NCBI GenBank assembly: GCA_012026935.1
Contig: VEPI01000034.1
Span: 1-44,134 of the forward strand
From: Melioribacter sp.
Lineage (GTDB): Bacteria; Bacteroidota; Ignavibacteria; Ignavibacteriales; Melioribacteraceae
Length of the DNA stretch: 44,134 nucleotides
Direction: 5' to 3'
Part shown: piece by piece, positions 1 to 4,544 of the stretch
Position numbering within the stretch: position 1 is the first letter of the stretch
Layout: the number at the start of each line of letters is the position of its first letter
Position numbers and translations under genes: made by a program
The notes under the pieces: model-generated
What the model was told of the DNA's origin: nothing
The model's database searches: none
The model's input: the letters and a program-made list of their open reading frames with translations, nothing else

Positions 1-2
1 TG

Positions 3-65
3 AAAGAAGTAACACTTAAAGAAGCAAGAAAAAATTTGACTGAAAATGGTTTTAAGGTAAAATAA
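3..65 (+). CDS. C-terminal end of a CDS entering from the left edge; heavy-metal-binding-domain (HMBD)-like tail
   Basis: Open frame from the window edge reads KEVTLKEARKNLTENGFKVK*, closely matching the segment after the HMBD motif in the 3934-4503 protein (REVTVEKAKEKLLKRGFKV). Confidence 0.6.
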   Translation, partial: KEVTLKEARKNLTENGFKVK

Positions 66-165
66 TAATCAGTGGAATCGAATTTTAGATATAACTCTCA
101 AATTTTTAATGGCATTGGTAAGAAATCGAAACCAAATTTAAAACAATAAATAATGGAGAACCAAA

Positions 166-678
166 ATGAAAAATCAAAATAATTTCCGAATGCAGAACAC
201 CATAATGCAAATGTTTGTGGCTGTTCTTTTCCTATCTCTATTGGGAAGTGTTTCAATATTTGCTCAGCACCAGCATGACGGCACCGGAATGGGTGGAAAT
301 CAAAATATGCAAATGCAGGGAATGCAGAAGCATATGGGCGATATGCAAAATATGATGACTAAAATGAACGGTATGATGGAAAAGTCATCTCAAATGATGT
401 CCGCTATGAAATCGGGAATGGGGCAAGGAAACAATATGGGAAACATGAACATGAATTCTAAAATGCTTCCAATGATGCAAGGTATGGACGGCATGGGAAA
501 GAATATGAAAGATGTTCTTGGCGAAATGACAAAGATGATGGGCGATAAAGATATGATGAAAGATGGTGATATGATGAACAACATGAAAGATATGATGGGC
601 AATATGAAATCAATGATGAAAGATTATGATGAGATGCTGAAGATGATGGAGAAAACACAACAAGGCGGGAAGAAATGA
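166..678 (+). CDS. Methionine-rich secreted/periplasmic protein
   Basis: 170 aa ORF; N-terminal hydrophobic signal-like segment ending in FAQ; about a quarter of residues are Met, many as MM or MxM; HQHDG near the mature N-terminus. Confidence 0.8.
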   Translation: MKNQNNFRMQNTIMQMFVAVLFLSLLGSVSIFAQHQHDGTGMGGNQNMQMQGMQKHMGDMQNMMTKMNGMMEKSSQMMSAMKSGMGQGNNMGNMNMNSKMLPMMQGMDGMGKNMKDVLGEMTKMMGDKDMMKDGDMMNNMKDMMGNMKSMMKDYDEMLKMMEKTQQGGKK

Positions 679-1601
679 TTTCTCACCAAAGAAAAATTTT
701 GATAGAAAGAATTATCAAGAAGTCCTTTTGGGGCTTCTTGATTCTTTTTCTTTTTGCAGCAAATAATTCATTTGTGTTTGGACAAGAGGGGTGGTCGCTT
801 TCAACATCTATTCAATACTCAGGCGGGAATTATCTGTATAATAATTCTAACAGAATTTTCTATATATACGGAGGCGCCGGTTATCAAGCTAAGGATTGGA
901 GTATCAGCATTTCTGTTCCGGTTGTTTCTCAAAGCTCCGGCGGAGTTGGCCAAGTTGGCGGAATGATGCTGCCGAATGGAAACAGCGGCGACCCGAATAA
1001 TATGATGGGCAATAATAGCGGCACAAACAGCGGTGGAATGATGGGCAACAACGGCGGAATGATGGGTAACGGCACTTATAATTCTACACTGTCCGGAAGT
1101 ATGTCTTCATCAAATCATTTTGGTTTGGGAGATATTTATCTCTATGGTTCATATAATCTTTTGGATGAATTTACTTCGTCTTTTGATTTGAACTTAAACC
1201 CATTTGTAAAAATACCCACCGCTAACGAAACAAAAGGATTAGGAACCGGTGAATTTGATTACGGTATTTCCGCAACAGCAAAAAAAGCATTTGATACTTT
1301 TGTGACTTTTGCAGATCTCGGTTATATGATAATCGGTAAACCGGAAAGTATTAATTACAAAAATCCGGTTAGTTACGGTTTGGGTTTTGGAAAATTCTTC
1401 AACGACGGCAATTATTCTTTACTGCTTTATTATCAAGCATATACCACAATTCTTGAGGGTTATGACGCACCCAAACTATTATCATTGGGATTTAATTATA
1501 AGCTCAATCCGGTTCTAACTCTTTCCTTTATCGGTTCTGCCGGATTAAGTAAAGTTACTTCCGATTATTCATTTTCAAGCGGATTGAAGTGGAATTTATA
1601 A
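675..1601 (+). CDS. Outer-membrane beta-barrel-like protein with Met/Gly/Asn-rich insert
   Basis: 308 aa ORF overlapping the previous stop by 4 nt; signal-like N-terminus (FVFGQ), alternating beta-strand-like segments, terminal SGLKWNL; GGMMGNNGGMMGNG insert. Confidence 0.75.
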   Translation: MISHQRKILIERIIKKSFWGFLILFLFAANNSFVFGQEGWSLSTSIQYSGGNYLYNNSNRIFYIYGGAGYQAKDWSISISVPVVSQSSGGVGQVGGMMLPNGNSGDPNNMMGNNSGTNSGGMMGNNGGMMGNGTYNSTLSGSMSSSNHFGLGDIYLYGSYNLLDEFTSSFDLNLNPFVKIPTANETKGLGTGEFDYGISATAKKAFDTFVTFADLGYMIIGKPESINYKNPVSYGLGFGKFFNDGNYSLLLYYQAYTTILEGYDAPKLLSLGFNYKLNPVLTLSFIGSAGLSKVTSDYSFSSGLKWNL

Positions 1602-1626
1602 ACATAGCGTTTCTGAAAGGATTGTT

Positions 1627-2229
1627 ATGAAAAGTATTCTATTCGCATTAATATTTTTACTGACTGCATTTTCTTTCAATATTTATGCACACGGGAAAGA
1701 ACATGACAAACACAAAAAAGTAAAAGCTGATACATTAACAATTGTGGATGGTGATACAATTGCTGTAAACGGTCATCCAAAGAATTATAAAATGCCGATG
1801 ATGACAAAAGAAGAGATGCAAGAGGAAAAATTTGAGCTAAAGCCATCTGAAGAAATATTCGAACATCTTCACAATAAAATTGTCCACTTTCCAATTGCCA
1901 TCGGTGTTATTGCGTTCTTCTTTTCACTATTGCATCTCAGACGTAAGAATTATAACACTACAATATTAATCCTCGTCGTTCTTGGATTGGCTTTTTCAGT
2001 ATTAGCTTTCTTCACCGGATTGAATCAAGTTCAACCATTTGAAGGAACAAATAAATACTGGGTTGTGGAACTGCATCGAAATTTCGGTATCAGTATCCTT
2101 ATCACTTACTTTATTTGGTTGTTCTTTCTTCTTGTTGATAAGATTAAAAAATATGCGTGGATTATTGGAGCAATAATTTTTGTTCTGATTTTGATTACTG
2201 CCTTTTTAGGCGGAGTAATAGCACATTAG
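1627..2229 (+). CDS. DUF2231-like membrane protein
   Basis: 200 aa; signal peptide; HNKIVHFPIAIGVIAFFFSLL followed by further TM helices, typical of DUF2231-type proteins. Confidence 0.7.
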   Translation: MKSILFALIFLLTAFSFNIYAHGKEHDKHKKVKADTLTIVDGDTIAVNGHPKNYKMPMMTKEEMQEEKFELKPSEEIFEHLHNKIVHFPIAIGVIAFFFSLLHLRRKNYNTTILILVVLGLAFSVLAFFTGLNQVQPFEGTNKYWVVELHRNFGISILITYFIWLFFLLVDKIKKYAWIIGAIIFVLILITAFLGGVIAH

Positions 2230-2307
2230 AATTGTTTACGAAAATGAGAACGGGACATGTTCAATCCATGTCATTAAAATAGATTCAATAAATCAAAAGG
2301 TGGTTAT

Positions 2308-3816
2308 ATGGAAAAACAAATAAATAGATTGTTAATCTTGATGCTGATTTCAGTTGTTACTTTATCAGCTCAAGGGATGGGATTTATGTTCCCCGATACA
2401 TTAGCACAAGTTACACTCACCGGTAAAGTTACTGTTGATAATTCTCTTCCCATGCCGATATACTATCTCGACGTAAATGGCGACAACACAAATGAATACT
2501 ATCTTAACTTCGGTCCTACCTGGTATTCACCGGATAACTCAACAGCAGTAAGACCGAATAACGGAGACCAAGTTACCATTATAGGCGGACAGATGAACAG
2601 TTCAATGAACATGAACGGACTGCCGATGATTATTGTCTATCAAATTAATGGAAAACTTTGGAGAGATCCGTTCGATCCGATGTGGAATAGTTTTGGAAAC
2701 AATACACATATGATGGGACAACATGCAGACAATTGCAGCGGCTATGCCTTTGGCGTAAGCGGAACAACAGCCCAGAATGTAACTTTGACAGGAACTGCTT
2801 TAGTTGATACAACTTATTTTATGAATCTATACTACTTAGATGAAAATCAAGACGGTAAACCGGATTACTTTTTGAATTTTGGTCCGTGGTGGTACGAACC
2901 GAATACAGGTGCAAAGAGACCAAACAATGGCGATAACGTAACAATCGTGGGAGGAAAATTGCAAGCAACAAATGGCTTAAGTGTTGTAATTGTTTATCAG
3001 ATTAACGGTAAAGTGTGGAGAGATTCTTCGTTAATAGGAAAATATTTTGGCGGAGGATGGATGCGAAAAAATAATAGTAACGATAAGGTGATGAACCCTT
3101 TTGATGAAAATGATTTTATGATGATGGGAAGCGGTTGGAACATGGGTGGTATGATGTCTGATTCTATGTTTACAAGAATGCTGGAATTGAATCCGTACAA
3201 TATGCCGAAAAGCAAAGGAGAAAATATTTTTAAGTGTTATGAGATCGGCATATTTAATTCAAACGGCTCCAACGGAATGATGCAGAGCGGCTGCGGTGGA
3301 ATGATGAACTTTGGTTCTAACGGTAACTTTCAATTTCATTTCAACGATAAACAAATACAGGCTTACCACATTGATAAAAACAGTTTGAGAGTAAAATACT
3401 GGAACAGCCAAACAAATCAATGGATTATTATTTCCAACGCGGTAATTAACTCATCCACTAATACAATTACTTTTTCTAACAGCCAGATTGCCAGCTATTA
3501 TATTTTAACTTCCGATAATGTTACTGCTGTTGAATATGATGCAACTGTTCCTACGGGATATTCTCTCGAACAAAATTATCCAAACCCATTTAATCCGAGC
3601 ACTAACATCAGTTATACTCTACCTAATGAAGAAAATATCGTTCTGAAAATTTTTGATATCTCCGGAAGAGAAGTTAAAACATTGGATAGCGGTTATAAGC
3701 AAGCCGGGCGGCACACAATAACTCTAAATGCTGATAACTTTGCAAGTGGTGTTTATTTCTATCAATTAAATGCCGGCTCATTTATTGCAACTAAAAAATT
3801 TGTGCTAATGAAGTAA
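2308..3816 (+). CDS. T9SS type A sorting-domain protein with two tandem homologous N-terminal domains and Met-rich linker
   Basis: C-terminus YSLEQNYPNPFNPSTNISYTLP...GREVKTL...ASGVYFYQLNAGSFIATKKFVLMK is a classic Por/T9SS sorting domain; two similar ~100 aa blocks begin at VTLTGKVTVD and VTLTGTALVD. Confidence 0.85.
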   Translation: MEKQINRLLILMLISVVTLSAQGMGFMFPDTLAQVTLTGKVTVDNSLPMPIYYLDVNGDNTNEYYLNFGPTWYSPDNSTAVRPNNGDQVTIIGGQMNSSMNMNGLPMIIVYQINGKLWRDPFDPMWNSFGNNTHMMGQHADNCSGYAFGVSGTTAQNVTLTGTALVDTTYFMNLYYLDENQDGKPDYFLNFGPWWYEPNTGAKRPNNGDNVTIVGGKLQATNGLSVVIVYQINGKVWRDSSLIGKYFGGGWMRKNNSNDKVMNPFDENDFMMMGSGWNMGGMMSDSMFTRMLELNPYNMPKSKGENIFKCYEIGIFNSNGSNGMMQSGCGGMMNFGSNGNFQFHFNDKQIQAYHIDKNSLRVKYWNSQTNQWIIISNAVINSSTNTITFSNSQIASYYILTSDNVTAVEYDATVPTGYSLEQNYPNPFNPSTNISYTLPNEENIVLKIFDISGREVKTLDSGYKQAGRHTITLNADNFASGVYFYQLNAGSFIATKKFVLMK

Positions 3817-3933
3817 CCATTTCCAAACTTTGTACATGGTCTTTATAATTGACTGCTTTACTCTTTTTGATGTTGATGATTTTTGTATTACATAATTAAA
3901 ATTTATTGAAAAAAACGGCTTATTGGAGGAAAT

Positions 3934-4503
3934 ATGTTACACAAAAGTAATTTCACAAAACTCTTTATCGTCGTTGCATTATTAATTGCATCCTCGATAT
4001 TCGCTCAAGAAAAATCTATGCATATGAATATGAAAGGCATGAAGTCTGCAAAACAAACCGCTGATTCAATTATCGTTAGAAAAGGAGTGATAGATTTAAA
4101 ATCTATTGATAAAAATAACGATGGGAAAGTTTATCAATGTCCTATGGAAGCGAATGTTCTATCAGACGAAAAAGGTGAATGTCCTTTATGCGGAATGGAT
4201 ATTAGAGAAGTAACAGTAGAAAAAGCTAAAGAAAAATTATTGAAAAGAGGATTTAAGGTTTCTGAAACAGAACTCAAAGAGAATCCCGGAACCGAAAATA
4301 AATCAGTCGAAGCAAAAGTTAGTATTTGGAACCAAGTCTGCCCAGTAACGGGTGAAGATGTAGATTCCGACACACCTACAGTAGTATATCAGGGAAAAAC
4401 AATTGGATTTTGCTGTTCAGGATGTATTAAAAAATTCCAAAAGGATCCCGAAAAGTATATGAAGAATCTAAGCGAAGACGGATCAAAATTCGTTGGTAAA
4501 TAG
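3934..4503 (+). CDS. Secreted heavy-metal-binding domain plus YHS-domain protein
   Basis: Signal peptide (SSIFAQ); YQCPMEANVLSDEKGECPLCGMDIREV (HMBD-like) and CPVTGEDV...YQGKTIGFCCSGCIKKFQKDPEKYM (YHS-like). Confidence 0.85.
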   Translation: MLHKSNFTKLFIVVALLIASSIFAQEKSMHMNMKGMKSAKQTADSIIVRKGVIDLKSIDKNNDGKVYQCPMEANVLSDEKGECPLCGMDIREVTVEKAKEKLLKRGFKVSETELKENPGTENKSVEAKVSIWNQVCPVTGEDVDSDTPTVVYQGKTIGFCCSGCIKKFQKDPEKYMKNLSEDGSKFVGK

Positions 4504-4512
4504 TTTCATTTA

Positions 4513-4544
4513 GAGCCTAAGAACACTTACTTGGGCTCTTTTTT
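4513..4544 (+). terminator. Rho-independent terminator after the HMBD/YHS gene
   Basis: GAGCCTAAG-aacactta-CTTGGGCTC imperfect stem followed by TTTTTT. Confidence 0.75.

Follow-up and report, generated by a model that had tools for sequence, protein, structure and literature searches.

Background

In the Cus system of Escherichia coli (CusCFBA), an RND pump, an adaptor and an outer-membrane channel are encoded in one operon together with CusF, a gene that is not found in all Cus-type systems. In cryo-EM structures of the pump CusA, Cu(I) is held by M573, M623, M672 and E625 (PMC8092243). Beside CusCBA-type pumps stand the genes of the sponge-like proteins SilE and PcoE, which are small and exported and carry metal-ligand residues at helical spacing (i+3/i+4); the SilE motifs are a mixture of His and Met (PMC5008109, PMC10080550). 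PcoB, an outer-membrane barrel encoded in a copper operon, possesses a Met-rich flexible segment (PMC12509749). Met-rich periplasmic peptides of the MrpX type are known from another context, in which a Met sulfoxide reductase system is their partner (PMC8315932).

Here we describe a group of genes from a 3.18-Mb draft genome of Melioribacter sp. (Ignavibacteriales), which we compare with these systems. The stretch of DNA analysed (the window, 44,134 nucleotides) starts from the first base of contig C66. An initial annotation, made from the sequence, had described five complete plus-strand genes (166-4503) and the tail of a sixth, with products that are all exported or membrane-bound, and the gene calls bear this out. 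The features are as follows (coordinates are those of the window):

1..65, plus strand: 3' end of the gene for HMBD1, a small HMBD protein; the remainder lies at L009:3-320, minus strand
166..678, plus strand: METR, exported Met-rich protein of 170 aa, with Met columns conserved in homologues
675..1601, plus strand: BARREL, a PF13557-type beta-barrel predicted for the outer membrane, one loop of which is rich in Met, Gly and Asn
1627..2229, plus strand: DUF2231-like membrane protein of 200 aa, with a His-containing N-terminal segment
2308..3816, plus strand: T9SS-sorted surface protein of 502 aa, with two predicted OB-fold repeats, a Met-rich middle and a Por_Secre_tail
2395..2670, plus strand: first predicted OB-fold repeat in the T9SS protein (AlphaFold2, Foldseek)
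2764..3027, plus strand: second predicted OB-fold repeat in the T9SS protein, sharing 56% identity with the first
3934..4503, plus strand: HMBD-YHS, exported protein of 189 aa with HMBD and YHS domains (family matches)
4512..4539, plus strand: hairpin and T run resembling an intrinsic terminator, directly after the HMBD-YHS gene

Results and discussion

The cassette is the distal half of a probable Cus-type operon

The first 55 bases of the window are identical to the end of contig C142 (taken on its minus strand), and joining the two contigs produces one unbroken ORF, which encodes a 109-aa exported HMBD protein (HMBD1). Leftward on C142, in the same direction, lie genes for CusB with an HMBD, a CusC-like channel, a CusA-like RND protein of 1116 aa, and a small Cys-rich exported protein; the gene order of the operon is thus CusA, CusC, CusB and then HMBD1, whose tail begins the window. 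The initial annotation had guessed that an efflux operon might adjoin the window on its left and had pointed to CusA/CusB-type genes as the ones to look for, and both are immediately upstream. Within this genome the join rests on the exact overlap of 55 bp, but the junction is backed by the recurrence of the order CusA-CusC-CusB-HMBD-METR-BARREL-DUF2231 on single contigs of other genomes (L048, L049, L206 and L207), in some of which one extra small gene stands within the order. The same four loci answer the question of conserved synteny, which had been proposed as a test of the copper reading, in its favor. The intergenic gaps from the HMBD tail through HMBD-YHS are 100, -4, 25, 78 and 117 bases, the negative value being the 4-base overlap of the BARREL gene start with the end of METR. 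We conclude that the cassette is the second, distal half of a Cu/Ag export operon, and that the whole unit is likely to be transcribed as a single RNA.

A few features in and around the operon should be mentioned in passing. An inverted repeat with a T run at 714-742, near the start of the BARREL gene, appeared terminator-like in the scan; it is probably a chance occurrence, possibly an attenuator. The small Cys-rich exported protein encoded ahead of cusA (L009:6737-7165, minus strand) has no family match, and comparable-looking Cys-rich proteins are seen at other metal loci (L044, L081, L084); its gene may specify a leader peptide or a metal-binding protein. No metal regulator adjoining the operon was seen in the ORF list. 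The CopA-type copper ATPase of this genome is encoded away from the operon (G000:C69, L228), and its surroundings showed no further obvious genes for copper pumps. Elsewhere in the window, between 31700 and 43425, the translations resemble, as judged by eye, a cluster for reductive pyrimidine breakdown, comprising parts of dihydropyrimidine dehydrogenase, dihydropyrimidinase, an aminotransferase and ureidopropionase.

The pump carries the Cu(I)/Ag(I) triad

The RND protein belongs to the CusA/CzcA family (TIGR00914, 1124 bits against a cut-off of 701), and the adaptor and the TolC-type channel are both present in the operon (HlyD_D23, 6e-74, and OEP, 2e-21, respectively). Alignment to E. coli CusA (3t51) reveals that the triad M573/M623/M672 (M569, M619 and M668 in the numbering of the protein itself) and E625 are retained, while the triad is missing in about half of the RND proteins from the fetched loci. 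Both the pump and its predicted metal, copper or silver, are well supported. The operon shares with E. coli CusCFBA the triad-bearing RND pump, the adaptor, the outer-membrane channel and the organization in one operon, but its order is A-C-B, an HMBD protein is found and not CusF, and CusA contains an insertion of about 63 residues (785-847), the first half of which is rich in Met, Ser and Gly. A further difference is the presence of the extra genes for METR, BARREL, and the DUF2231, T9SS and HMBD-YHS proteins. The HMBD of CusB aligns with the N-terminal part of E. coli CusB, which bears Met residues.

HMBD proteins and the absence of CusF

The initial annotation had claimed HMBD-type segments and a YHS domain, and both are confirmed by family matches: HMBD-YHS matches PF19335 (E 6.6e-11, 42.4 bits, cut-off 23.6) and PF04945 (E 1.5e-9), and HMBD1 matches PF19335 (E 1.7e-7, 31.5 bits, same cut-off). 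HMBDs occur at three places in the genome, all of them within this operon. A profile search of the genome for the CusF family (PF11604) found no member, while the control match was obtained in E. coli, and the small HMBD protein is therefore a candidate substitute for CusF. Gene linkage points in the same direction: among RND proteins with readable triad positions, at loci collected via relatives of the T9SS protein or the barrel, a small HMBD protein is encoded at most four genes downstream in 9/9 cases with the triad and in 0/9 without it (Fisher p 4e-5, a value that overstates the strength and independence of the association, because the loci are phylogenetically related and were chosen by other neighbors). 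From this linkage and the absence of CusF we infer that the small HMBD protein could act as the chaperone in its place.

The DUF2231-like protein scores slightly under the cut-off of PF09990 (24.7 against 26.4 bits), and its homologs stand downstream of BARREL at other loci. HMBD-YHS found no match when used as the query of a plasmid search. The literature searched, with incomplete coverage, yielded nothing that links DUF2231 with copper, or the heavy metal binding domain with the YHS domain.

METR and BARREL form a conserved pair

Without its likely signal peptide METR comprises 136 residues, among them 40 Met, 3 His and no Cys. Its Met content (25.3%) is far above chance and compares with about 0.4-4% in the window ORFs outside the cassette. 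The Met residues recur with helical periodicity (a peak at 100-110 degrees, reached by one of 1000 shuffles), with an excess of spacings 3, 4, 7 and 10 and a depletion of 2, 5 and 9; this periodicity is weak in several METR homologs. In three diverged homologs the invariant columns are mostly Met. No Pfam or NCBIfam family matches METR above the cut-off. The initial annotation had listed MxM among the Met clusters of the cassette; in METR it is MM and MxxM that abound, and MxM (spacing 2) is depleted, with an observed/expected ratio of 0.18. As to its more general claim of several proteins with Met clusters, Met enrichment is only mild in the DUF2231-like protein and in HMBD-YHS.

BARREL matches PF13557 (E 3.8e-8), and its Met clusters are confined to one loop. 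Directly upstream of the BARREL homolog, a Met-rich ORF is present at 27 of 29 loci in a set from the phylum and at 20 of 21 loci in a second set from the order, a few of which nearly duplicate loci of the first set; among background ORFs, comparable Met content is found in 1 of 123. METR and BARREL thus form a conserved gene pair. Within Ignavibacteriales, BARREL occurs in 47/142 genomes (28/63 genera), where the pair usually resides within copper gene clusters, its neighbors being CopA-type ATPases, cupredoxins, multicopper oxidases, CusCBA, and HMBD and DUF2231 proteins. The arrangement CopA-cupredoxin-METR-BARREL also appears in other lineages (L084, a Bacteroidetes MAG, and L211). At two loci (L182 and G089:C4:222624-223448), in-frame TAA stops were reported inside the barrel matches, yet the ORFs there are of normal length; the match probably extends beyond the edge of the gene.

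By analogy with SilE, and in view of its gene linkage, METR may be regarded as a periplasmic sponge for copper and silver. Like SilE and PcoE, it is small, exported and encoded beside a CusCBA-type pump, and its metal-ligand residues show the helical i+3/i+4 spacing, but its 40 Met and 3 His, its lack of a recognized family match, and its nearly constant pairing with a barrel set it apart from them. The Csp copper storage proteins also display many soft-ligand side chains on helices, using Cys. METR has no Cys and, in the tentative module considered below, would be their Met-lined thioether counterpart. BARREL, in turn, may resemble PcoB in role, since both are outer-membrane barrels of copper operons with a Met-rich segment; however, BARREL belongs to PF13557 and not to the PcoB/CopB family PF05275, for which no match was found in the genome, and its Met-rich segment is an internal loop rather than the N-terminus.

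It could be argued that METR and BARREL constitute a general envelope module, e.g. a porin with a helical periplasmic partner, whose basic job has nothing to do with metal and which was recruited to the copper operons of Ignavibacteriales, becoming more Met-rich there. Indeed, distant families (f32, f42) keep the pair with a METR of 11-21% Met and 14-28% Gln, mostly with no copper genes nearby, so that the pair possibly predates its role in copper handling. On the other hand, METR is richest in Met near copper genes, and even the distant forms far exceed the background ORFs in this respect; on balance, we consider a non-metal basic function unlikely. Less probable still, to the extent that we regard it as quite doubtful, is that METR serves as a sacrificial sink for oxidants like MrpX/BcrX, its Met residues scavenging hypochlorite or other oxidants, and that it stands beside copper genes because copper stress oxidizes Met. 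Both are exported Met-rich proteins, and the lack of Cys and the paucity of His in METR would suit such a role. However, this explanation is weakened because the MsrP catalytic family (PF00174) is absent genome-wide; moreover, the stable partner of METR is an outer-membrane barrel rather than a reductase, and its usual neighbors in Ignavibacteriales are copper exporters.

The surface protein is not a marker of copper

The T9SS protein carries a type A sorting domain (TIGR04183, 50.1 bits, cut-off 23; PF18962, E 1.2e-11). Its repeats are predicted to adopt the OB fold: the AlphaFold2 model of a single repeat is of high quality (pLDDT 91.7, pTM 0.82), and its best Foldseek matches in the PDB are mostly OB-fold proteins (RPA14, OBodies, LysRS), with E-values that are weak (best 0.0099) and a fold class that is consistent across matches. 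The single repeat was used instead of the whole protein, the model of which was poor (pLDDT 57.6) and matched mostly Ig-like domains. Membership of the repeats in the CusF family was ruled out, as the family match is absent. In distant relatives (L189, L190, L197), genes after or near METR-BARREL encode small OB-like proteins that are exported and carry the motif H(L/M)GPxWY; these are similar to the repeats of the T9SS protein (profile probability 81%).

Among the genomes sampled in the order, between about one quarter and one third have full-length relatives of the T9SS protein, as do 13/396 of the phylum sample. A scan of genome contigs was swamped by the generic sorting-tag pattern and yields no census. 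The full-length relatives reside in several kinds of metal-resistance island, including some beside Zn/Cd-type (ZntA-like) P-ATPases and RND proteins without the triad; the T9SS protein is therefore no copper marker. An association of its Met content with the type of RND protein was looked for and was not seen. These neighbors might suggest an operon for zinc, cadmium or mixed metals, but the CusA of the operon has the full Cu/Ag triad, which the CzcA-like RND proteins in the same data lack, and we deem that reading very improbable.

A proposed division of labor

The initial annotation had read the cassette as a copper/silver system. The Met triad of CusA and the copper neighbors of METR-BARREL elsewhere agree with this reading, with the qualification that the T9SS family is not copper-specific. 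We propose, with considerable confidence in the scheme as a whole, although metal binding and function are deduced from sequence, that this is an envelope Cu(I)/Ag(I) detoxification operon with the following division of labor. The CusA-CusB-CusC pump would remove Cu(I)/Ag(I) from the periplasm, and the small HMBD protein, in the place of CusF, would gather the ions and pass them to the pump. METR, presumably helical with Met on one face, would absorb surplus periplasmic Cu(I)/Ag(I) in the manner of SilE. BARREL would be its partner, with a Met-rich loop that may serve to guide metal at the outer membrane or to buffer it there, as has been proposed for PcoB. The T9SS protein with its predicted OB folds may bind metal at the surface of the cell; the accessories in the membrane and the periplasm could be the DUF2231-like protein and HMBD-YHS, respectively. 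Such an operon would be a variant of the known Cus/Sil/Pco-like envelope detoxification, with partners that appear to be undescribed in the literature searched, the coverage of which was incomplete.

It is tempting to go further and to consider METR-BARREL as an undescribed two-gene metal module, in which the Met-lined helices store periplasmic Cu(I)/Ag(I) and pass it on to a dedicated barrel in the outer membrane, a second exit beside the tripartite pump, with the small HMBD protein as the CusF substitute of this lineage. We offer this more specific proposal tentatively, as a possibility that we would not yet favor.

The handling of copper and silver in the envelope has hitherto been known mostly from Proteobacteria, and the partners linked to the Cus pump described here are different ones. 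For METR-BARREL and the small HMBD protein, the linkage is strong enough for prediction of function, and their size suits direct testing. If the predictions are true, this lineage would possess a replacement for CusF and a Met-only metal sponge with a partner in the outer membrane.
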